Below are positions 4,277-22,330 of a stretch of 44,915 bases of DNA, in pieces (position 1 is the first letter of the stretch; every line of letters begins with the position of its first letter). The translations under genes and the position numbers were made by a program. This DNA is from Methylovulum psychrotolerans (GTDB lineage: Bacteria; Pseudomonadota; Gammaproteobacteria; Methylococcales; Methylomonadaceae). The DNA is taken from NCBI RefSeq assembly GCF_002923755.1, contig NZ_PGFZ01000004.1:382350-427264 (forward strand). The letters are read 5' to 3'. The notes beneath the pieces are model-generated. The model was not told the DNA's origin and ran no database searches. It saw only the letters and a program-made list of their open reading frames with translations.

Positions 4277-5389
4277 ATGGCTACAACCATGACCGCTAAA
4301 CAGTGTCATTTTTATTGGCTCGATTGGGTAAGGTTCATTGCCGCGTTCATGGTTGTCGCCATTCATGCGCGTGGTGGCGTATGGCTTGATTGGGGGCGGC
4401 TTCAGGCGGGTTCGCGGACATTGCTTTCCGCAATTTTTTTTGCTGTTACCCGTGCCGGAACCGAATGGGTGCTGGTGTTTTTTATCTTAAGCGGATTTTT
4501 AGTGGGTGGAAAGCTGATTGAACGGTTGGAAAACAACACTTTTGATCTACGGGTTTATATGATAGATCGGATTACCAGAATTTGGGTTCCGTTGTTGCCG
4601 GCGCATATTTGGGCGGCTTATGTGGCGTACATGGCGGAAAAATCACTTTCATGGCGTGAATTGTTCGGAAGCCTTATCGGTTTGCAAGGGATATTCACTA
4701 GGGCTTTCGCCGAAAACTATCCCTTATGGTCGCTGGCCTATGAAATATGGTTTTATTTTTTAGGTGGCTGTTTGGCCATTTGGCTCCGTTCCGCTTCTAG
4801 ACTGCGGATTTTGGCTGGCTTCGGCATTGTTGTGGGGATGGCGATATTTACCCAATTGAATGTCGTATTTTTGTTTGCATGGATTCTTGGCGCATCAACG
4901 TATTGGATGTGTCACGAAAAATCAAATACGGGACTTGGGGTACTGGGTTGTTTTTTAATCGTTGTAGGGTTTGCGCTGTCCCAAGTCCGCTCTGCATCGG
5001 TATCGGTAGATTTATCCGCATGGCTGCAATATGTGCCTTCAAGCAACGTAGCTATGCTGGTACTATCGTTAGGGATCGCCTTGGTATTCCCTATTTTGAC
5101 CCAACTTAGGCCGAAATCGAAATTTGGCGGGCAGATTAATGCGGTGGGAGGGAAGTTTGCTGCATTTTCTTATACGCTCTACTTGACACACTATCCGTCG
5201 CTTTATCTTTGGGAACACTATATGCCTGGCCGATATGACGCAATTGATTGCCAATCGGCCTTATGGTATGGGCTAAGGATTGTGTCCTGCCTTATTCTGG
5301 GGTGGTTGTTTTATTTGCCATTCGAAAGGCAAACACCGCAGGTACGCAATGTTTTAATGAGCATCAAATACGGTAACCAGAAAATGTGA
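4277..5389 (+). CDS. acyltransferase-3 family membrane protein
   Basis: Integral membrane O-acyltransferase of the acyltransferase_3 family, expected to acetylate or otherwise acylate glycan hydroxyls. Seen: the N-terminal signature YWLDWVRFIAAFMVVAIHA with the conserved Asp/Arg pair and His about 25 residues in. About ten hydrophobic helices follow, with FFILSGFLVGGKL near 75 and the ENYPLWSLAYEIWFYFLGG segment near 150. Length (370 aa) is typical. Two near starts exist (4277 and 4289), both with poor Shine-Dalgarno sequences. It sits between glycosyltransferases, consistent with decorating the same polymer. Confidence 0.9.
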   Translation: MATTMTAKQCHFYWLDWVRFIAAFMVVAIHARGGVWLDWGRLQAGSRTLLSAIFFAVTRAGTEWVLVFFILSGFLVGGKLIERLENNTFDLRVYMIDRITRIWVPLLPAHIWAAYVAYMAEKSLSWRELFGSLIGLQGIFTRAFAENYPLWSLAYEIWFYFLGGCLAIWLRSASRLRILAGFGIVVGMAIFTQLNVVFLFAWILGASTYWMCHEKSNTGLGVLGCFLIVVGFALSQVRSASVSVDLSAWLQYVPSSNVAMLVLSLGIALVFPILTQLRPKSKFGGQINAVGGKFAAFSYTLYLTHYPSLYLWEHYMPGRYDAIDCQSALWYGLRIVSCLILGWLFYLPFERQTPQVRNVLMSIKYGNQKM

Positions 5390-13093: not shown

Positions 13094-13957
13094 CTAATAA
13101 TAGAATGACGACGAAATGTTGGGCTTATCATTCTGCAAATAATTTTCTAACTCGGTTGCCTCGTCAGTTCTGACCCTGAATTTGACCAGCGTATTAGGAC
13201 CAAAGGTAGAACTGATAGCGACATCGGCGGCATCGCGGCCACGCGCTATCAATACCCGTCCAATTCTGGGCGTATTGTTACGCGCATCGAATGTGTACCA
13301 ACAGCCATCAAGGTAAGCCTCAAACCAACCGGCAAAATCCATCACGCCAGGCAACGGCGCTATACCTATATCACCTAAGTAGCCTGTGCAGTAGCGAGCG
13401 GGGATATTCATGCAACGGCAAAAGGTGATGGCAAGATGGGCGTAATCACGGCAAACGCCGGCTTTTTCCTGAAAGGCTTCCCAAGCCGTCTTAGTGCGAC
13501 GGGCATGTTGATAACCAAAGGCAATATGTTGGTTAACATAATCGCAGATGGTTTGGACACGCATCCATCCCGTCGGGGCTTTGTCAAACAATTGCCACGC
13601 TATTTCAGACAGGCGGTCGGTTTCGCAATAGCGGCTCCCCAACAGAAACACCAACGTCTCGTCTGGCAAAGCTTCTACTGGCATTTGTTTTGCGTGTGGG
13701 ACAAAACTATCCGTTTGCCCTGTATCACGGATAACCGCATTGGCGGACAGCCGCAACTGGCCTTTAGGGGCGACGATGCGGCTGCACCAGTTGCCATAAC
13801 TGTCATGATACGCGGTAATTGGTATGGGTGGGTCGGTGATCATGTTGTCAGGAATAATTAAATCTGAGACGCGTGTGTGATGCACATTCAAGGTCAGGAT
13901 CATTGGGGTCGGCTGCGGACAGTCGTAAATTACTTCATAGCCTATATTGATTTTCAT
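13094..13957 (-). CDS. transglutaminase-like protein, probable missing catalytic His
   Basis: Protein of 287 aa with an N-terminal beta-rich region of the bacterial transglutaminase-like type (about 1-90) and a transglutaminase-like core (about 120-230). The nucleophile motif is GVCRDYAHLAI, Cys169. The third triad residue is FDARNN, Asp224. Where the family has His before Ala-Trp, this protein reads MDFAGWFEAY, so Ala209 occupies the aligned place. Cytoplasmic: no signal peptide. ATG 13957 follows AAGGGC. It is third in an Anbu-led cluster, 61 bases after the amidohydrolase. Anbu genes commonly neighbour transglutaminase-like genes. The His loss suggests a non-hydrolytic role or a shifted catalytic residue, which is inference. 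Confidence 0.87.
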   Translation of the reverse strand: MKINIGYEVIYDCPQPTPMILTLNVHHTRVSDLIIPDNMITDPPIPITAYHDSYGNWCSRIVAPKGQLRLSANAVIRDTGQTDSFVPHAKQMPVEALPDETLVFLLGSRYCETDRLSEIAWQLFDKAPTGWMRVQTICDYVNQHIAFGYQHARRTKTAWEAFQEKAGVCRDYAHLAITFCRCMNIPARYCTGYLGDIGIAPLPGVMDFAGWFEAYLDGCWYTFDARNNTPRIGRVLIARGRDAADVAISSTFGPNTLVKFRVRTDEATELENYLQNDKPNISSSFYY

Positions 13958-14018
13958 GGTGATTGCCCTTAATTGATTGCAAAACTAGCCTGAGGCAAGT
14001 TCTAATGTATTGATTAGC

Positions 14019-14804
14019 TTATGAGGATGTTCCGTAACATTGGCTCACAAGGGTTTGTCCTAACGATTCGATAAGGACTTTGCGTAGGTTTGGCCAAGCT
14101 TGACCTGCCCTGATAACATGCTTCTGATTGATTTCCAGCTCAATGCCCAGGTAGGTTCCGGGCGGCATTTGTTGGCGTAACCAAGAGGTCAAGCCATCGC
14201 CTTTTCCTAAATAAGGGTAATTGCGGCGGACTTTTAAATCAGGTGCGCATCGCTTGAGCGCGAACTGCCAACGCCCGCACAAATCCGCTTCCCCTGGTCG
14301 GGCAGGATCGTACAGCAAGCCTATATCGGCGGTGCGTATTTTGCCGTTTAATTCGGGCGTAAAGCTATGCGACGAAACATGAATCACCAGCCCATGATAG
14401 GCAATCCCCTGCCTGACCAAACGTTCCACTTGCTCGCGGTAGGGTTGGTAATAGTATTGCAAAATTTCCTGCCGCGCAGCCACTGAAAGGCGACGGATCA
14501 CCTCTGCATGGAGGCGCGGATGACCGACAGAACGGTTCAAGTCAACCAACAAGCGGCTAACAGTGGCCGCCACTAGCGGCGCAGATAATGCTGTTGCCAG
14601 TTCTTTTGCCATCAGCAACGCACCGAAATCAAAGCCACAATGGGTTGCCAATTGCGCTTGATAGCTATGGAAAAAATCCTGATACGGTAGGGGGATTAAG
14701 TTGCCGCCATGCTCGCAAGTCACCACAAAGCCTTGGCTGATACAGTCTGTTACCGATTTATCCATGGCCTCAGTTTGTGGTTTTATAGCCAAGGCTTTCA
14801 CCAA
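14019..14804 (-). CDS. N-formylglutamate amidohydrolase family protein
   Basis: About 260-aa zinc amidohydrolase-like protein. Seen: TCEHGGNLIP (about 29-38, the metal-binding E/H pair), DLNRSVGHPRLH with the conserved Asn-Arg, VIHVSSHSFTP, DIGLLYDPAR, and GIELEINQKHV near the end. Known members hydrolyse N-formyl-glutamate or act on gamma-glutamyl-type amides. There is no histidine-degradation gene nearby, so a different amide substrate in the Anbu cluster is likely (inference). The frame begins at TTG 14804; GTG 14801 overlaps the Anbu stop as GTGA and is the likely translationally coupled start. ATG 14765 is possible but its GAGG is only two bases away. Confidence 0.87.
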   Translation of the reverse strand: MVKALAIKPQTEAMDKSVTDCISQGFVVTCEHGGNLIPLPYQDFFHSYQAQLATHCGFDFGALLMAKELATALSAPLVAATVSRLLVDLNRSVGHPRLHAEVIRRLSVAARQEILQYYYQPYREQVERLVRQGIAYHGLVIHVSSHSFTPELNGKIRTADIGLLYDPARPGEADLCGRWQFALKRCAPDLKVRRNYPYLGKGDGLTSWLRQQMPPGTYLGIELEINQKHVIRAGQAWPNLRKVLIESLGQTLVSQCYGTSS

Positions 14805-15523
14805 TCCAAATTGGGCAGGCGGTTGAATACCTCCCGCGTACCTTCAGTCCATTGCTTACCCAAGGTACTGAAGTAGTCATCCCCCACCTCAAAGCGGCGG
14901 CGCATCTGCACCTCAAGGCTATCACGCCGATAACAAACTAAATCAATCGGCATACCGACAGATAAATTACTGCTCATTGTTGAGTCAAAAGACACGAGGA
15001 CAGACTTTGCGGCATTGTTCAGAGACGTTGAGCGGGTAATGACCCGATCAATAATCGGCTTCCCGTATTTGGTCTCCCCTGTTTGGAAGTAAGGTGTTTC
15101 AACGCTAGCCTCGATAAAGTTGCCCTGCGTATAAATTCGGAACAGGCGGGGCGGTTCACCTTTGACCTGCCCCCCCAATATGAACGAGGCGTTAAAACTG
15201 ATCGCACTTGCGGCCAAATGTTGGCCATCACGACGGTTAATGTCACGCATGGCATCCGACACCTGTATGGCCACATCGAAAAGTGTTTTCGCGCTCCAGA
15301 GATTAGGTTCGTCGTTATTTTCATTCCGCTGCTTCAATACGCTGACCACCGCTTGTGTCCCTGCCAAATTGCCCGAACTTAATAGCACAATGACGCGGTC
15401 AGCAGCGCGTTCAAACACTGTCATTTTACAAAAGCTCGCAATATCATCGACACCCGCATGAGTGCGCGAATCCGATGCAAATACTAGCCCCGTGTCGAGC
15501 ATGATGCCTATACAGTAAGTCAT
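14798..15523 (-). CDS. anbu: Anbu-type proteasome-like peptidase
   Basis: Ancestral beta-subunit-like Ntn hydrolase of 241 aa, forming a self-compartmentalised peptidase ring in the cytosol. Seen: the sequence opens Met-Thr-Tyr-Cys, so removal of Met exposes the catalytic N-terminal Thr. Asp18 (ASDSR) and Lys33 match the Ntn triad positions, and THAGVDDIASF is a strong Anbu signature. Later SGNLAGTQAVV and the KYGKPIIDR stretch also fit. The gene leads a - strand cluster with an overlapping amidohydrolase and a transglutaminase-like gene. The alpha-E and ATP-grasp amide ligase partners often found with Anbu are absent from this window. No strong Shine-Dalgarno precedes the start. Confidence 0.93.
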   Translation of the reverse strand: MTYCIGIMLDTGLVFASDSRTHAGVDDIASFCKMTVFERAADRVIVLLSSGNLAGTQAVVSVLKQRNENNDEPNLWSAKTLFDVAIQVSDAMRDINRRDGQHLAASAISFNASFILGGQVKGEPPRLFRIYTQGNFIEASVETPYFQTGETKYGKPIIDRVITRSTSLNNAAKSVLVSFDSTMSSNLSVGMPIDLVCYRRDSLEVQMRRRFEVGDDYFSTLGKQWTEGTREVFNRLPNLDW

Positions 15524-16193
15524 GGATAAATTAGTCGGTTAAGTCATTGAGAGATCGGCTCTATAACCCTTAAAGAAAAAAGATGGGCAGAGTCGGTTGG
15601 GATTTTGTTGTCATTTTACCCCTTACTCAAGGATTGTCTGTGTGCTATCTAACATTGTGTGAGTTTAAGATGGAGGCTTGTAAAAACGCTTTTGTCGCAA
15701 AATTTACCGCATCTGCCTTATCCTACAACGGCAAACCATCTATTGCCTGATTATGCCCATCTGGCATTAGCTGCGCCCGTAGGACGCTGAGCTCAGCATA
15801 AGCTATAGCGTCATAATAAGCCGCTTTCCGGCATCATATCCCATTAAAAACACAAGGTTATTCCTGCGGCAACGTCTATGCTTGCCGAAAAATTGCCCGA
15901 CTTTGTCATAAAAGCACCAAAACAGGCTATTTAATTACTGGCTAATATAATAAATAATCTTTATTTTTCAAAAAATTATATATTTCCCGAAATTTTTTTT
16001 ATTTATTTCCGAAAATATTTACAAAAGTGTGAACTATTCACTCTACCTGAAATATAAATTATGATTTAATTCGGAAATGGTGAGTTAATAAAATTGTAAC
16101 AATAACCCCTTAAGGCATTTCCAAGAAAAATACGCAACCGGAAATCGCCTTGATACCGTATTTTTTCTGCAATGGCTTACAGGAGTTACCTTA
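15524..16193. promoter_or_regulatory. 670-bp divergent, partly very AT-rich leader region
   Basis: No gene found. It separates the divergent Anbu cluster and hydrolase operon, so it should carry promoters for both. Contents: a hairpin at 15783-15812 (GACGCT/AGCGTC arms, with inner AGCT/AGCT pairing); a perfect TATAAT at 15946-15951 without a clear -35; three related motifs TTTCCCGAAA (15983-15992), TTTCCGAAA (16006-16014) and TTCGGAAA (16070-16077); and a 13-bp inverted repeat GTGAA-CTA-TTCAC (16029-16041). Bases 15940-16130 are far more AT-rich than the genes on either side. Promoter roles are inference. Confidence 0.5.
15783..15812. other. hairpin in divergent intergenic region
   Basis: Outer arms GACGCT (15783-15788) and AGCGTC (15807-15812) are perfectly complementary. 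Inside them AGCT pairs with AGCT around a 7-base loop. The perfect palindrome GCTGAGCTCAGC (15787-15798) overlaps the left side. No T-run follows, so this is more likely a structured or protein-bound element than a terminator. Confidence 0.4.
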
Positions 16194-17243
16194 ATGTCTT
16201 TACACACTTCGTTCGGCGAATCGGTCTATGAAGAACGGGTCGTACCGTTTACTGCCGCAGACGGTTTAGCCCTTAACCTGATTAATCTGCGTGGCCAGAG
16301 AAAGCCGCATAAATGTCCGGTGCTGTTAGTGCATGGGGCAGGGGTGCGCGGCAATATTTTCCGCGCCCCAGTCACTAAAACCATTGTCGATGCCCTGATT
16401 GAAGAAGGCTATGATGTCTGGCTAGAGAACTGGCGGGCGAGCATTGCCTTCCCGCCAAATTTGTGGACGTTAGACCAAGCCGCGCTGTACGACCACCCGC
16501 AGGCGGTCTACACCCTATTGCGGGAAACCCGTGCCGACGAAATCAAGGCTATCATCCACTGCCAAGGCTCCACTAGCTTTACCATGTCCGCCATTGCCGG
16601 ACTCGTCCCCGATGTTACGACCATTATCAGTAACGCCGTATCGTTACATCCGATTGTGCCGTGTTGGTCACGTTTTAAATTGCAATGTTTGGTGCCGATA
16701 GTCGGCCTAATGACCGACTACCTTAATCCTCATTGGGGGGTCTATGCCCCTAACCTCATCGCCAAATTTATTACCCTGCTGGTCAACCTGACTCATCATG
16801 AATGCCATAACGCCGTCTGTAAACAAGTCAGTTTTACTTACGGCAGCGGTTTTCCGGCACTATGGCGCCATGAAAACCTCAACGAGGCAACCCACGAATG
16901 GCTAAAAGAAGAGTTTGGTGCCGTGCCGTTGCGCTTTTTTGCCCAAATCACCCGCTGTATCCAGCAAGGCCATTTAGTGGCGGTTGAAGACCTTGAAGGC
17001 TTGCCCGACGACTTTACCGCCGCACCGCCAAAAACCGCCGCCCGTTTTGCCTTTTTTGCGGGTGAGGACAATCTGTGCTTTTTGCCCGACAGCCAAACCA
17101 AAAGCCATGCGTATTTTTCGGCTTTGCGCAGCAACTACCATACGTTGCACCGCCTGCCTAACTATGGGCATTTGGATATGTTTATGGGCAAAAATGCCGC
17201 CCAAGATGTCTTTCCGTTAATGTTGCAAGAACTTGCCAAATAA
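16194..17243 (+). CDS. alpha/beta hydrolase with Cys nucleophile
   Basis: Hydrolase of 349 aa, cytosolic, with no signal peptide. Seen: oxyanion region LLVHGAGVRGN (about 44-54); nucleophile elbow IHCQGS, where Cys123 replaces the usual Ser; acid candidate Asp292 in FAGEDNLCF; His326 in NYGHLDMF. A Cys nucleophile occurs in dienelactone hydrolases, and I recall an HCxGS elbow in alpha/beta-hydrolase domains fused to GMC oxidoreductases in other bacteria. A GMC enzyme gene lies three genes downstream. Strong AGGAG precedes ATG 16194 by 8 bases. It is first in the five-gene set, 20 bases before the decarboxylase-like gene. Substrate unknown; an ester, lactone or thioester of a hydrophobic alcohol is plausible. 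Confidence 0.85.
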   Translation: MSLHTSFGESVYEERVVPFTAADGLALNLINLRGQRKPHKCPVLLVHGAGVRGNIFRAPVTKTIVDALIEEGYDVWLENWRASIAFPPNLWTLDQAALYDHPQAVYTLLRETRADEIKAIIHCQGSTSFTMSAIAGLVPDVTTIISNAVSLHPIVPCWSRFKLQCLVPIVGLMTDYLNPHWGVYAPNLIAKFITLLVNLTHHECHNAVCKQVSFTYGSGFPALWRHENLNEATHEWLKEEFGAVPLRFFAQITRCIQQGHLVAVEDLEGLPDDFTAAPPKTAARFAFFAGEDNLCFLPDSQTKSHAYFSALRSNYHTLHRLPNYGHLDMFMGKNAAQDVFPLMLQELAK

Positions 17244-17263
17244 TTTTCACTCAGGGGCTGACC

Positions 17264-18136
17264 ATGTTGTGTTTTTCTAACCGTATTAAAAATTATGCCG
17301 GACGCTATTCGTTGGTCGACGGTATCCCTTTCAAGCTGCCGGTGGCGGCGGTCAATTCGCCTGCGCTCATGGCGGTGTTTCCGATTGATGCCGAAAAAGC
17401 CAAGCAGTTTTTGCCGCACGGTATCCATCCACTCCGATTATGGACACAGAGCCTGTTAATTGTCACGGTGATTGATTATCGGGAGACCACCATAGGCAAA
17501 TATATCGAGTACAGCATCGCCATTGCCTGCACCCACGGCGAAAAGCCCGCGCCGCGCCTGTTGCCCGGGCTGTTCCAACGCTTTTTTAAAGCCGGGCAAT
17601 ATGTTGTCGACCTGCCGGTCTCTTCGGAAATTTCTGTCAAAGGCGGCAAGGGCATTTGGGGTATGCCCAAGCATCAGGCCAATCTGGATTTTAAGATTAG
17701 CGAGACCAAAGTCAGCAGCCAGTACGATTTGGACGGCAAATTGGTGGCTTATGTCGAAATCGAACCCGCCAAATGCACAAAAATTCCGGTGAAAGCCAGA
17801 GCGTCCAATTATTGTTCGTTTCGCGGCATGTTAATGAAATCGGACATCCTGCTCGACACCCACTGCGGGGTGAGGTTGCTGAAAGCCGCCAAGGCGCGTT
17901 TTGTCATCGGCGACCATCCCCGCCTGCAAGCGTTAAAAGAACTGGACATCGGTGCCGCCATCGCTACCGTGTATTTGCCGTCGATTACCGGCACGTTAGA
18001 TGACCATATCGAAAGCTGGTTTTTGGACTTGGCGCAATTGCCCGAAAAAGCTCCCGAAGGTTTTGAGTCGGTGATTAATTTAGGCTTGAGCGAAGCCTGG
18101 CTGGCTCCGCCGGATGCGCCTATACCGCCGTCATAA
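17264..18136 (+). CDS. acetoacetate decarboxylase-like protein
   Basis: Protein of 290 aa in the acetoacetate decarboxylase superfamily. Seen: FPIDAEKAKQFLPHGIHPLR in the N-terminal part, a VTVIDYRETTIGKY segment, and the active-site region GGKGIWGMPKHQANLDF. There Lys136 aligns with the Schiff-base Lys of the decarboxylase, but the following Lys that lowers its pKa is His137. Superfamily members with changed active sites perform aldolase, dehydratase or unknown chemistry, so decarboxylation should not be assumed. CAGGGG precedes ATG 17264. It lies between the hydrolase and an unknown gene in the same transcript. Confidence 0.82.
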   Translation: MLCFSNRIKNYAGRYSLVDGIPFKLPVAAVNSPALMAVFPIDAEKAKQFLPHGIHPLRLWTQSLLIVTVIDYRETTIGKYIEYSIAIACTHGEKPAPRLLPGLFQRFFKAGQYVVDLPVSSEISVKGGKGIWGMPKHQANLDFKISETKVSSQYDLDGKLVAYVEIEPAKCTKIPVKARASNYCSFRGMLMKSDILLDTHCGVRLLKAAKARFVIGDHPRLQALKELDIGAAIATVYLPSITGTLDDHIESWFLDLAQLPEKAPEGFESVINLGLSEAWLAPPDAPIPPS

Positions 18137-18205
18137 ACCGACGGTGTCACCTGAGCAAATTCACGTTGTACCCTCCCATTCACTATAACTAAAAGGACAG
18201 AAACA

Positions 18206-18814
18206 ATGACTACACCCTGCGGTTTCCAATTTAAAGAAACAATGGCGGGCGGTTTTGCCCTGGGCGTTGACACGCCTGCCGAAGGCCTGCATCAGGGCAA
18301 CCGCCTCGATACCAAGTTGGCCATCCATGTCACGGTGTCGATTGATGATGTGGAACGCTTTATTAAAGAGCCTGAGCATCCTGGGCATTTATCAGGCACT
18401 ATCGACTTTGCGCCTATGGGCTTGGGGATAGTCGCCAATACGGGTGTGTTTAACCTGTTCTCGCCCACCGACGATCCAGAATTAAAACTAATGGTGTATG
18501 AACTGGCTTTTGAGCATGACGGCTCAGCATATTATCTGGCGGGTAAAAAAGAAGTCCGCGACGATCCGGGTTTTGATTTGTGGTCGGACACCACCACTCT
18601 CTATACACAACTGCATAAAGGCACGGATAAAAGCGAGCCGCTGGCAGGGGCGGGGATTTTGACCTTAGGTGTTACCGACCTGATCAAGTTGGTCTCCACC
18701 ATGACGGTGACCAATGCCAGTTGTGCCGCCGATAAGGCGAAAACCCTCAGCCAATTTGGCGGTTTCTTCTTAGGCGAGCTTTGGGACACTTACGGCTTAC
18801 ATCTGGGCAAGTAA
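18206..18814 (+). CDS. conserved-looking protein of unknown function (GMC-associated domain)
   Basis: A 202-aa soluble protein without signal peptide or clear membrane helix. Seen: FKETMAGGFAL at the start, a beta-rich middle with GTIDFAPMGLGI and GVFNLFSPTDDPELKLMVYEL, then AGKKEVRDDPGFDLWSDTTTLYTQL near 115-139. I recall a similar stretch (KEVxDDPGFDxWxDTTTLYT) as a linking domain in large fused GMC oxidoreductase-hydrolase proteins, though I could not check this. If right, this operon encodes as separate proteins what others make as one polypeptide. The fold looks barrel- or lipocalin-like, which is a guess. AAAAGGA precedes ATG 18206. Function unknown. Confidence 0.75.
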   Translation: MTTPCGFQFKETMAGGFALGVDTPAEGLHQGNRLDTKLAIHVTVSIDDVERFIKEPEHPGHLSGTIDFAPMGLGIVANTGVFNLFSPTDDPELKLMVYELAFEHDGSAYYLAGKKEVRDDPGFDLWSDTTTLYTQLHKGTDKSEPLAGAGILTLGVTDLIKLVSTMTVTNASCAADKAKTLSQFGGFFLGELWDTYGLHLGK

Positions 18815-18879
18815 GCATCCCTAGCACTTAACGTGATCGTCACCTTAACAAAAATAATAAAAAATAGGCCTTAATGGCC

Positions 18880-18912
18880 CGCCCTACCCAAGCGCATAGC
18901 TTGGCACGGGCG
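18880..18912. repeat. strong intercistronic hairpin, REP-like
   Basis: CGCCC-TAC-CCAAGC-GCATA-GCTTGG-CAC-GGGCG forms an outer 5-bp and inner 6-bp stem with a small symmetric internal loop and a 5-base loop. It lies in the 125-bp gap before the GMC gene, 28 bases upstream of its ATG. There is no T-run, so it is more likely an mRNA-stabilising or REP-type repeat than a terminator. Confidence 0.6.
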
Positions 18913-18939
18913 TAGCAAACAAAAAAAGGAGGAAATACC

Positions 18940-20664
18940 ATGTCTATCCCTTATGACTACGAAGCCATTGTTATCGGCAGTGGTTTTGGCGGTTCCATTA
19001 ACACTTGCCGTTTGGCAAAAAAATGGCCGGGGCAAGTGCTGTTGTTGGAACGCGGTAAGCGTTACCCGAAAGGCTCTTTTCCCCGCTCGCCCCAGACGAT
19101 GGCGGACAACTTCTGGAATGTCCCGCTAGAACAGCGCAAACGCCCGAAAAACATTGCCACTAAGCGCCAAACCCACGGCATGTTTGATGTGCGTAATTTT
19201 GACAATATGGATGCTTTGGTTTGTGCTGGCTTGGGTGGCGGTTCGTTGATTTATGCCAATGTGTTCTTGCAACCGCCTGACGAGGTGTTTGATGAAAATT
19301 GGCCGGAAACGTGTAAAAAAGCCGCATTGCAACCCTATTATGCGGTCAGCAAAGCCGTATTGGGCGCACGGCCTATCCCGCAAAACGACGACCCGCGTCG
19401 GCAGATTATCCGTACCGGCTTATTTAAGGCATTTGCCGAATCCGAACAGCGCGATTCCAAGTTATTGGACATTAACGTTTTCTTCGGCAATGATTTTGAC
19501 AATCCTTTGGATATCGGTGAGCAGGACAAAAACCGTTATGGCGCCACCCAAACCTCTTGTGTCTATTGTGCCGAATGCGATGTGGGCTGCAACACCCATT
19601 CCAAGAACACCTTAGACTTGAATTATTTATTTGTCGCCGAACGCCGCTATGGGGCGCAGATTAAGACCGAAGTGCTGGCGCAAAAAATCGTCCCGCTGAA
19701 TGCTGACGGGGCTGAGGATAGCTCTGCCAATGGCGAATACGGCTATAAAGTGTACTGGCTGAATCTGCATGGCAATACCGAATGCGTTGCCGTGAGCCGC
19801 CGCGTCGTCGTGTCAGCAGGTACTTTAGGCACCAATGAGTTACTGATGCGCTGCCGCGATGTCCATAAAACCTTACCGAACATTAGCCAACAGTTAGGCA
19901 AGCATTTTTCCGGCAACGGTGACTTTTTATCGTTTGTCATCGACGGTGACAAACCCGCCGACCCCAATTATGGACCGGTCATTACCCAAGGCACGGATTA
20001 TAATTTGTTTAAGGATTTCAACCGCGAAAACGCTTTTATCTTAGAAGATGCCAGTTTCCCCAATTTTGCCGCGTGGTATACCGAAGGTTTGCGTCCCGGC
20101 TTCTCGCATTGGCGGGCGTTTATCAGAACCGCGACGCTGGTGTTTTTGCGTTTTGTACGCGGCATTACCACCGGAGAGATCGGTTACGCCTTCAACGCCT
20201 TGTTAAAAGATAATTTATCGTTTACCACCGCTGTCTTGTTGTGTATGGGTATAGATAAAAGCAACGGGGTCATGCAGCTCGACGCGCACGGCGCATTGAA
20301 CGTGAAATGGCCGTATAGGGATAGCCTGCCTTTATACGAAGCGATTTTAGCGGTAGGCGAGCGTTTTAAAACATGGGCGGGCGGTAAGTTCTTTTTGCCG
20401 CTACCTAATTGGATTTGGCCAATCCGCAATAATATCACTGTCCATTCACTAGGTGGCTGCCGCTTGGCAGAAGATGCTTGCCAAGGCGTGACCAGTTCGG
20501 CATTGCATAATTTTGGCCAAGTATTTGGCTATCAAGGCTTGTATGTAGCGGATGGGGCGTTATTGCCGACCGCCGTTGGGGCTAACCCGGTGGCGACCAT
20601 TTCGGCCTTGTCGGAACGGGTTGCCGAAGGTATTACCGGTATCGCACCTGATGCCGATCTATAA
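18940..20664 (+). CDS. GMC-family (cholesterol oxidase-like) oxidoreductase with CxxCxxCxxxC motif
   Basis: FAD-dependent alcohol oxidase/dehydrogenase-like protein of 574 aa, without a Tat or Sec signal. Seen: FAD-binding IGSGFGGS (12-19), ERGKRY, the AGLGGGSLIYANVF segment (about 96-110), the active-site His502 in VHSLGGCRLAED, and Asn549 in GANPVATISAL, matching the His/Asn pair of cholesterol oxidase. Residues 207-217 hold four cysteines spaced C-x2-C-x2-C-x3-C, the spacing of a [4Fe-4S] ligand set. The start has the best ribosome site in the window (AAAGGAGG, 8 bases before ATG). Electrons may go to a quinone or cytochrome rather than oxygen. The substrate is probably a hydrophobic alcohol; sterol is only one option. 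Confidence 0.88.
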   Translation: MSIPYDYEAIVIGSGFGGSINTCRLAKKWPGQVLLLERGKRYPKGSFPRSPQTMADNFWNVPLEQRKRPKNIATKRQTHGMFDVRNFDNMDALVCAGLGGGSLIYANVFLQPPDEVFDENWPETCKKAALQPYYAVSKAVLGARPIPQNDDPRRQIIRTGLFKAFAESEQRDSKLLDINVFFGNDFDNPLDIGEQDKNRYGATQTSCVYCAECDVGCNTHSKNTLDLNYLFVAERRYGAQIKTEVLAQKIVPLNADGAEDSSANGEYGYKVYWLNLHGNTECVAVSRRVVVSAGTLGTNELLMRCRDVHKTLPNISQQLGKHFSGNGDFLSFVIDGDKPADPNYGPVITQGTDYNLFKDFNRENAFILEDASFPNFAAWYTEGLRPGFSHWRAFIRTATLVFLRFVRGITTGEIGYAFNALLKDNLSFTTAVLLCMGIDKSNGVMQLDAHGALNVKWPYRDSLPLYEAILAVGERFKTWAGGKFFLPLPNWIWPIRNNITVHSLGGCRLAEDACQGVTSSALHNFGQVFGYQGLYVADGALLPTAVGANPVATISALSERVAEGITGIAPDADL

Positions 20665-20693
20665 GCAACCCTACTACAACGGAGATTTTATTT

Positions 20694-22295
20694 ATGCAAG
20701 CAGCCACACCAGAAAACCCTACGCCGGATTTGTATTTTGAACTGATCACCCATGCCAAGCCCGAACGGGCGAACCGTATGTGCGTGGTAGTCAGCGACCT
20801 GCATTTTACCGACGGTACTGTCGGCTTCCAGAACCTCGGCGATTATGCTTGGGAAGCTTTTTACAGCACTATCCTGCAACGTTGCCTGACTTACCGCATC
20901 CATGAACTGGTGCTGGTTTTGGACGGCGATATTGTTGATATGATCCGTAGCAGCAAATGGGCCGAAAAAGGCATTTATCCGTGGGAGCGTGACCGCAAGG
21001 AATGCTTTTCCGCTGTCGTCAACGCCATTTTAAAAGATGTCATTGATGTGCAACACGCCAATTTCTTTAAATTGCTAAGGGACTTGGAAGGTAGGTTAAC
21101 CGCCGATACCCACAGATTAGACCGCCGTACCGCGTTTAAAAAAGTGAAAATCGTCGTGACGGTCGGCAACCATGATAAGGAACTGCTGTGCGACAACGCC
21201 GCGCTGACCTATTTTTATGAGCAGGGGCTAGGCATTAAACTGACTGACATAGAACCGGAACGCCGTCAAATGATGGGACGTATGTACGGCGACGAAACGA
21301 TGTTTGACAGTGTAAAAACCGCGCCGTACTTGCCATTTTATTATGGTGACACTGGTTTCCGTTTTTTCACCACCCACGGGCAATGGCGCGACCCGGACAA
21401 TAGCGCCGTAGTCGCCGCTGATCCCGACAAAGGTTTACCCGGTTGGTCGGCGAAAGACGGTTGGACGCTTGCGGTTTGGCAAAAATTAAAATTTTCGCCG
21501 TTTTTATTGCCGTGTTTTGGCGATACGGTGGCGGCAGGGGTGTTATCGACGTTTATCTATAAAACCAAAATTGCCATGGATCAACAAAATTGCCATGACC
21601 CAGTGATTGATTCCATTCTTGATGAATTGGATTTATACCGCCCCACTTATGCGGCCATCGAACGCATTCTGGAAGTCGCCGCCAAAAACCGTGCCGCCCA
21701 AACCAATCTGGATGCCGTGCAAATTATTGAGGATAAGCTTTATGAGTGCCTGCTCGATTGGCTGGGTTGGGATTTTACGTTGCAATCGTCACCGCCGTTG
21801 CGCCGGGTTGCCCTGATTGCCGCCAAATGGCTGCTGAAGCTGATGAGCCTATTTGGGCACAGCCTGCGCATTAGCGTTATCGGCGGCTTAATTAAGTTGC
21901 TTAAAATCGGCAACGTTCATGATACGCCCCCTACCTTCAATGAAATGGCGACCTTTCCGAGCTTCTTACCCGCTTATCGCCATTACGGTTTCCAAATCCA
22001 CGGTGAAGGCCATACTCATGTGCCTTTACAGGGAGAGGCTAATATTGATAATGAAAAATATGCCAGCACTTACATCAACTTTGGGACGTGGCGGGATCAG
22101 ATTGTGTTGCGGGAAAAGCAAGGCTACCGCCGCCGAGGCACTTTACGCAGCTTGTTTATCTTAGATTTGGAGAACTTGACCAAATCCAAAGACAGATTCC
22201 CCAGAAGTTTCGACTATTTTGTCTCCGATGCCATTACTTGGAGTGATTTAAACGACAATACGCATGAAGTAGGTAAAAACTCGGCGAAAATATAA
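20694..22295 (+). CDS. large calcineurin-like metallophosphoesterase
   Basis: Protein of 533 aa with a dispersed metallophosphoesterase core. Seen: SDLHF (Asp35, His37), LDGDIVD (Asp79), TVGNHDKE (Asn159-His160-Asp161), TTHGQW (His228) and HGEGHTHVPL (about 440-449) with the last metal-binding His residues. An insertion of roughly 200 residues (about 240-430) separates the last two motifs. It includes hydrophobic stretches such as LKLMSLFGHSLRISVIGGLIKLL that may contact membrane or lipid. The family cuts phosphomono- or diesters. In this operon a lipid-phosphate substrate is plausible but unproven. GGAG is 9 bases before ATG 20694, and the gene is 29 bases after the GMC stop. A terminator-like hairpin follows. 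Confidence 0.85.
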   Translation: MQAATPENPTPDLYFELITHAKPERANRMCVVVSDLHFTDGTVGFQNLGDYAWEAFYSTILQRCLTYRIHELVLVLDGDIVDMIRSSKWAEKGIYPWERDRKECFSAVVNAILKDVIDVQHANFFKLLRDLEGRLTADTHRLDRRTAFKKVKIVVTVGNHDKELLCDNAALTYFYEQGLGIKLTDIEPERRQMMGRMYGDETMFDSVKTAPYLPFYYGDTGFRFFTTHGQWRDPDNSAVVAADPDKGLPGWSAKDGWTLAVWQKLKFSPFLLPCFGDTVAAGVLSTFIYKTKIAMDQQNCHDPVIDSILDELDLYRPTYAAIERILEVAAKNRAAQTNLDAVQIIEDKLYECLLDWLGWDFTLQSSPPLRRVALIAAKWLLKLMSLFGHSLRISVIGGLIKLLKIGNVHDTPPTFNEMATFPSFLPAYRHYGFQIHGEGHTHVPLQGEANIDNEKYASTYINFGTWRDQIVLREKQGYRRRGTLRSLFILDLENLTKSKDRFPRSFDYFVSDAITWSDLNDNTHEVGKNSAKI

Positions 22296-22304
22296 AACTT
22301 GTCC

Positions 22305-22330
22305 GACCCTGCCGCAATGGCGGCAGGGTC
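22305..22330 (+). terminator. hairpin terminator after the GMC operon
   Basis: GACCCTGCCGC and GCGGCAGGGTC form a perfect 11-bp GC-rich stem with an AATG loop, 10 bases after the phosphoesterase stop. The following TTCGATCATT is only a weak T-tract, so termination may be partial or Rho-assisted. Confidence 0.8.

Follow-up and report, generated by a model that had tools for sequence, protein, structure and literature searches.

The window analysed here, a 44,915-nt stretch of Methylovulum psychrotolerans (NZ_PGFZ01000004.1), carries at 16194–22295 a set of five genes that joins known enzyme superfamilies, in a combination not seen before, to a single domain for which no family was found. Its core consists of a GMC oxidoreductase, the family-less domain, which we call u202, and an alpha/beta hydrolase with a Cys nucleophile. 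The first-pass annotation of this DNA had described five co-directional genes with ribosome sites behind an AT-rich leader; the genes, all on the + strand, and the leader are indeed there, and the features are as follows.

15930–16193, strand unassigned: AT-rich leader, presumed promoter region, read from the sequence
16194–17243, + strand: alpha/beta hydrolase, weakly acid-lipase/PhaC-like, with Cys as nucleophile (C123 in an HCQGS motif; H326)
17264–18136, + strand: acetoacetate-decarboxylase-superfamily (ADC-like) protein matching PF06314 (K136 in an invariant GMPKHQ motif)
18206–18814, + strand: u202, a domain of about 200 amino acids (aa) without a family, predicted closed beta-barrel plus helices
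18815–18939, + strand: hairpin-bearing gap of 125 bp between the u202 and GMC genes (RNA fold z -3.35)
18940–20664, + strand: GMC oxidoreductase, cholesterol-oxidase-like (catalytic H502/N549; four-Cys motif CxxCxxCx3C)
20694–22295, + strand: calcineurin-like metallophosphoesterase, 533 aa, LpxH-like fold, metal ligands invariant
22305–22330, + strand: strong hairpin 3' of the last gene, without a T-tract (RNA fold z -5.5)

The intergenic gaps within the set are 20, 69, 125 and 29 bp in gene order, and purine-rich ribosome sites lie upstream of all five genes, the weakest-looking (CAGGGG) being that before the ADC gene. In G010, a second genome of the genus, all five recur in unchanged order, with 75–85% protein identity, in a different neighbourhood. 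All five genes are intact and under purifying selection, with a ratio of nonsynonymous to synonymous substitution (dN/dS) between the window and G010 of 0.05–0.08 for each gene, at a dS near 2 that is hence saturated.

Conservation and fusion of the core

A scan of our genome collection with a six-sequence GMC alignment, from which the best 80 of 92 relatives were kept, placed u202 at 72 of the 80 loci. Together with 15 loci from other genomes these make 95, and removal of L107 and L121, which have no GMC, leaves the 93 loci counted below, in which L039 and L128 are one contig and L030, scored among the fusions, has an odd, short frame. GMC and u202 occur together in 85 of the 93. The commonest arrangement is a u202-hydrolase fusion adjoining the GMC gene (44 loci). 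Separate core genes occur with an ADC gene in 18 loci and without one in two, while in ten the whole core is a single GMC-u202-hydrolase protein of 1,135–1,332 aa. GMC and u202 with no hydrolase found account for 11 loci, some on cut contigs, and eight have no u202 beside the GMC gene; in five of these (L035, L060, L063, L065 and L087) the contig breaks off close to the gene.

The association also holds in the reverse direction. Searches from u202 detected it in 8 of 398 genomes of a phylum sample and 10 of 369 of a class sample, both of which include the window's genome and G162. At 16 of the 18 distinct u202 genes in the two samples, GMC is either the neighbour or part of one protein with u202; the remaining two (L107, L121) adjoin hydrolase and ADC genes with no GMC beside them. 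Distribution among relatives is patchy: a single-sequence query with the 202-aa protein found it in 6 of 61 genomes, the window's own included. These fusions and shared neighbourhoods argue that the GMC enzyme, u202 and the hydrolase act together, and their joining into single proteins makes one defined task probable. The earlier proposal that the five genes form a functional set is thereby upheld, given also the recurring hydrolase, lipase and phosphoesterase partners considered below. The openly licensed literature searched gave no description of the set, in keeping with the annotator's statement that no named pathway was known.

The GMC protein passes the Pfam cut-off, and its nearest solved structures are cholesterol oxidases (PDB 1b4v, 4u2l, 1coy), GMC-class enzymes with which it shares the FAD domain and the catalytic His and Asn. 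H502 and N549 align to HPLGGC and GVNP of solved cholesterol oxidase and are present in 79 of 80 rows, the remaining row being gapped. Unlike cholesterol oxidase, the window protein has a four-Cys motif and the u202 partner, and it does not reach the cut-off of the NCBIfam cholesterol oxidase model NF058674 (208 bits against 850). Similarity to the mycofactocin GMC MftG and to long-chain alcohol oxidases is weak (44.6 bits against a cut-off of 400); alcohol oxidases have a Cys motif similar to that of the window GMC. Another GMC oxidoreductase of a methanotroph, that of the Methylacidiphilum 2-propanol cluster, is described as TAT-transported, with a small subunit and clustered with pmoCAB3, whereas the window GMC begins directly at its FAD motif (PMC8630023).

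In the hydrolase, C123 is found in 61 of 61 aligned homologues and H326 in 60, with a gap in the remaining one. Its Pfam match is below the cut-off (19.8 against 25.8 bits), its resemblance to acid lipases, including a cholesteryl ester hydrolase, is weak (E 0.036), and against the NCBIfam class III polyhydroxyalkanoate synthase model it scores 22.9 bits where more than 365 are needed, so that its likeness to PhaC falls short of membership.

The 202-aa protein has no Pfam or NCBIfam match, and 53 members of u202 gave scattered weak Pfam matches only, the best at E 0.0072 for one member. Against PDB sequences it retrieved mainly antibody chains, at E 0.07 or worse. From these searches u202 appears to belong to an undescribed family; no family was found for it. 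The AlphaFold model (pLDDT 91.9, pTM 0.87) predicts a closed beta-barrel with helices. In other genomes its fusion partner is the hydrolase, a patatin lipase, or both GMC and hydrolase.

On an annotated Pseudonocardia plasmid the hydrolase is labelled 'alpha/beta fold hydrolase', the GMC 'GMC family oxidoreductase' and u202 'hypothetical protein'. The Actinomycetota form is GMC plus u202, with the hydrolase gene adjoining on this plasmid.

Partner genes and probable horizontal spread

The families tallied around the core were picked after being seen near it, and the counts that follow should be read accordingly. Present in 19 of the 93 loci, the ADC-like gene does not belong to the core. A patatin domain, usually preceding u202 within one protein, is present in 16 of these 19 and in 18 of the 93 overall; the ADC gene stands without one in the window, L014, L015 and L028. 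The window ADC-like protein matches PF06314 at 62.1 bits (cut-off 29.8), and K136 and H137 are invariant in 19 of 19 rows. With that superfamily it shares the invariant lysine of the Gly-Ile-Trp-Gly-Met-Pro-Lys motif, and its Lys-His would stand where classical acetoacetate decarboxylase has the Schiff-base Lys followed by a second Lys. Neither the single protein at E 0.01 nor a 16-row profile at E 0.1 matched PDB sequences, and at E up to 10 the rows were chance ones, with no alignment to a solved decarboxylase.

Phosphoesterases of several families or groups lie within 6 kb, on either strand, in 50 of the 93 loci. Counts of loci with a near against a far copy are 27:0 for the window's own family and 9:0 and 11:0 for two further calcineurin-type groups, and PhoD-like enzymes occur in two loci, above the Pfam cut-off in L035 and below it in L123. 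Between the first two families the relationship is only remote (hhalign probability 93.6), so one seems to have taken the place of the other. The window phosphoesterase has no Pfam match, though 15 of the 25 members of its alignment match Metallophos (PF00149) at E≤0.01, and the metal ligands D-x-H, GD, GNHD, H and GHxH are kept in 27 of 27. Phosphoesterase profiles found no match among PDB sequences. By fold, the nearest protein is LpxH, the lipid phosphoester hydrolase of lipid A synthesis, at 14–18% identity; the window protein adds a helical insertion of about 170 residues, read from the model at about residues 259–430.

A CHAT-domain protein follows the cassette in nine Azotobacter-type loci. 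It closes the cassette in Azotobacter, Rheinheimera, Shewanella and some Methylobacter (L016, L018, L020, L022 and L040, at about 13270–15340). Rarer neighbours are a P450, a RoxA-like di-heme cytochrome, a DyP-type peroxidase (one near, one far), a fatty acid cis/trans isomerase, a class 3 lipase, an SDR and a DUF6765 protein, the last close to the core in L061, L064, L102 and L122 (by Pfam in L102, by similarity in the others). Same-strand RoxA-like genes are found at up to 6 kb in L026, L041, L063, L065 and L103, and one lies beside the copy in G015 (L008, around 1406). As a specific partner the RoxA-like oxygenase was weakened, since PF21419 matches 59 of 61 relatives, 54 of them above the cut-off.

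Pairs of GMC and u202 were found in Pseudomonadota, Spirochaetota, Bdellovibrionota and Actinomycetota, and in the first three of these phyla the core recurs with all three domains. The GMC trees are quick ones with long branches, the later of them built with the GMC part cut out by profile. The ADC-form rows, with four truncated or variant ones (L013, L023, L030 and L033), make one clade of 22 rows with a Shimodaira–Hasegawa-like approximate likelihood-ratio (SH-aLRT) support of 93 (94 in the earlier tree), which holds Methylobacter, Methylovulum-type genomes, Azotobacter, Rheinheimera, Shewanella and Paraglaciecola. Within it, Azotobacter clusters with Methylobacter luteus, Shewanella and Rheinheimera (SH-aLRT 99 in both trees). 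Since this grouping departs from the relationships of the species, horizontal transfer of the cassette between lineages is most likely.

The single-protein GMC-u202-hydrolase form is a separate clade of the GMC tree. An ADC-bearing locus with ADC and patatin genes, L077, lies outside the 22-row clade, among the u202-hydrolase fusion loci. Its position, and the u202-ADC neighbourhoods without GMC in L107 and L121, suggest that the ADC part can be recombined. At 4609–13824 of L077 (Candidatus Methylumidiphilus), a GMC of fusion-locus type and a u202 frame are followed by hydrolase, ADC-like, patatin-u202 and phosphoesterase genes, so that parts of both forms stand in tandem. In L107 (9091–12723, genome G162) the order is hydrolase, ADC-like, patatin-u202, with no GMC or phosphoesterase adjoining; G162 also has the single-protein form elsewhere in its genome.

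Candidate functions of the cassette

The gene order, co-occurrence, domain fusions, intact catalytic residues and lineage spread observed at these loci are consistent with a portable cassette that processes a membrane-derived lipid, either cytoplasmic or acting on the inner membrane face, a reading that we consider the most likely one and hold at about even strength. None of the five proteins has a hydrophobic stretch of transmembrane strength (highest 19-residue mean 1.66). The LpxH-like phosphoesterase and the Cys hydrolase would release a lipid with a hydroxyl group from its phosphate or ester in the membrane, helped in most relatives of the ADC sub-clade by the patatin lipase. The u202 barrel may hold the lipid or pass it between the enzymes, a hand-over role that we propose because the domain is covalently joined to hydrolase, lipase or oxidase elsewhere. 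Judging from its family and intact active site, the GMC flavoenzyme would then oxidize the hydroxyl group, and where the gene is present the ADC-like protein could act on the resulting keto compound through its invariant lysine, by decarboxylation or aldol-type chemistry. An order of release, GMC oxidation and ADC-type reaction is a chemically coherent proposal. The first-pass annotation had likewise suggested a pathway for a hydrophobic alcohol or its phosphate or ester: the recurrent hydrolase, lipase and phosphoesterase partners fit its release and oxidation steps, while its decarboxylase step falls outside the core and the order of the steps is one that we infer.

A different role for the same chemistry would be signalling, in which the core makes an oxidized lipid messenger that is sensed by a 7TMR-DISM receptor with a kinase or cyclase output encoded nearby. 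A gene for such a receptor lies within 2.5 kb in 11 of the 93 loci, and none in 451 kb of 4–8 kb flanks (p 0.002 with a 4-kb near zone, a value that is too small, since the receptor family was picked post hoc and the relatedness among loci ignored). It is downstream in Leptospirales, but Burkholderiales and Chitinimonas have it upstream and on the opposite strand; this difference in position by lineage argues for at least two separate receptor linkages. A Noviherbaspirillum locus is another that carries the receptor. Behind the core in L038 and L044, and behind the GMC gene on a Leptospira plasmid, class III cyclase proteins are encoded, although by itself the excess of cyclases (7 near, 2 far; p 0.18) falls short of significance. 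Some copies have P450 and RoxA-like proteins in their vicinity, which would also suit this reading, but RoxA-like matches are common in all the relatives. No receptor adjoins the window copy, so that in methanotrophs it would have to be lost or unlinked, and where it is present the receptor could merely control the pathway. We regard lipid signalling as a live alternative, though an unlikely one overall; its linkage to a receptor would make a bacterial lipid signal testable. On the Leptospira borgpetersenii plasmid lbp2 (L129, 8992–15018), a GMC homologue of 59.8% identity directly precedes a very large protein with an adenylate/guanylate-cyclase domain; none of the core families of u202, hydrolase and phosphoesterase is represented in this 19.7-kb stretch.

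A fuller version of the signalling scheme is conceivable, though we hold it doubtful: an undescribed lipid-mediator system in which lipases and the LpxH-like phosphoesterase would release the lipid, u202 carry it, heme oxygenases (in some lineages) and the GMC enzyme oxidize it, and 7TMR-DISM read it. By analogy, such a system might be a bacterial parallel to eicosanoid-type signalling, a comparison that we hold to be just as doubtful.

Returning to the processing of a membrane-derived lipid, its substrate is narrowed by the genomes of the carriers. The kinship of the GMC with cholesterol oxidases, and the weak likeness of the hydrolase to acid lipases that include a cholesteryl ester hydrolase, would suit catabolism of an imported sterol or steryl ester, with the hydrolase as cholesteryl esterase and the GMC as cholesterol oxidase. 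Yet profile positions 10–331 and 448–574 of cholesterol oxidase align with the window GMC and those of the substrate region, 332–447, do not; the score falls far below the NCBIfam cut-off; many carriers are methanotrophs; and no steroid-degradation family is among the scanned neighbours, themselves a selection. We consider such sterol catabolism very improbable.

A further reading, in which the cell processes a hopanoid or sterol of its own making (sterols and hopanols were among the alcohols that the first-pass annotation proposed for enzyme assays), has in its favour two matches to the triterpene cyclase family PF13243 (squalene-cyclase-type) in the window genome. Among 30 carrier genomes, however, 13 have a match, one of them marginal, and 17, some of them drafts, have none; among these 17 are ADC-form carriers from Rheinheimera, Shewanella, Neptunicella and Azotobacter chroococcum. 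A triterpene made by the cell therefore cannot well be the common substrate; as a shared function this idea is largely refuted, and we rate it very improbable. The substrate, if shared, must also occur in bacteria without hopanoids or sterols, and a commoner lipid, such as a phospholipid, a fatty alcohol or a hydroxy-acid ester, is the more likely candidate.

Least probable of all is a defence or stress module, which the lipase, CHAT and cyclase partners recall through their resemblance to anti-phage systems: a CHAT protein stands beside nine of the 93 loci (that of L019 matching PADLOC SAVED_CHAT weakly, at 44 bits) and a patatin domain occurs as well, but a PADLOC search with the five window proteins gave no match at E≤0.01 and the core consists of metabolic enzymes. 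Carriers include named isolates of Methylomonas, Azotobacter, Shewanella and Rheinheimera, which makes the function of the cassette a question for the bench; among them, Methylomonas sp. LW13 has the GMC, u202-hydrolase and phosphoesterase genes, and an Azotobacter chroococcum strain has the ADC form.

Hairpins and flanking blocks

The strong closing hairpin of the first-pass annotation is real (-25.2 kcal/mol, z -5.5), but it lacks a T-tract and is not among the calls of the terminator scan. Promoter-like matches in the scanned region number 12 against a mean of 9.7, which is not above chance. The hairpin-bearing gap 5' of the GMC gene differs in sequence in the G010 copy. With up to three mismatches allowed it has a single match in the genome, and a repeat element was rejected on account of this one copy.

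The set lies between two glycan blocks, as the first-pass annotation remarked, but has no special relation to them: in relatives, set and blocks are each found in the absence of the other, and a link of the set to glycan synthesis was rejected. The downstream exopolysaccharide (EPS) block adjoins other genes in G006, G007 and G019, not the set, while in G010 the set has other neighbours to its left and right and the EPS transferase finds no match. Upstream, on the - strand at 13094–15523, is a block of transglutaminase-like, N-formylglutamate amidohydrolase-like and proteasome-type genes, and these three are kept together in G010, G013 and G015 at 80–93% identity. Other genes follow the block in G013, and in G010 it is on another contig than the set; in G015 the contigs of set and block are too short to judge linkage. 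The window genome has a second proteasome-type copy, about 41% identical, on contig C1.

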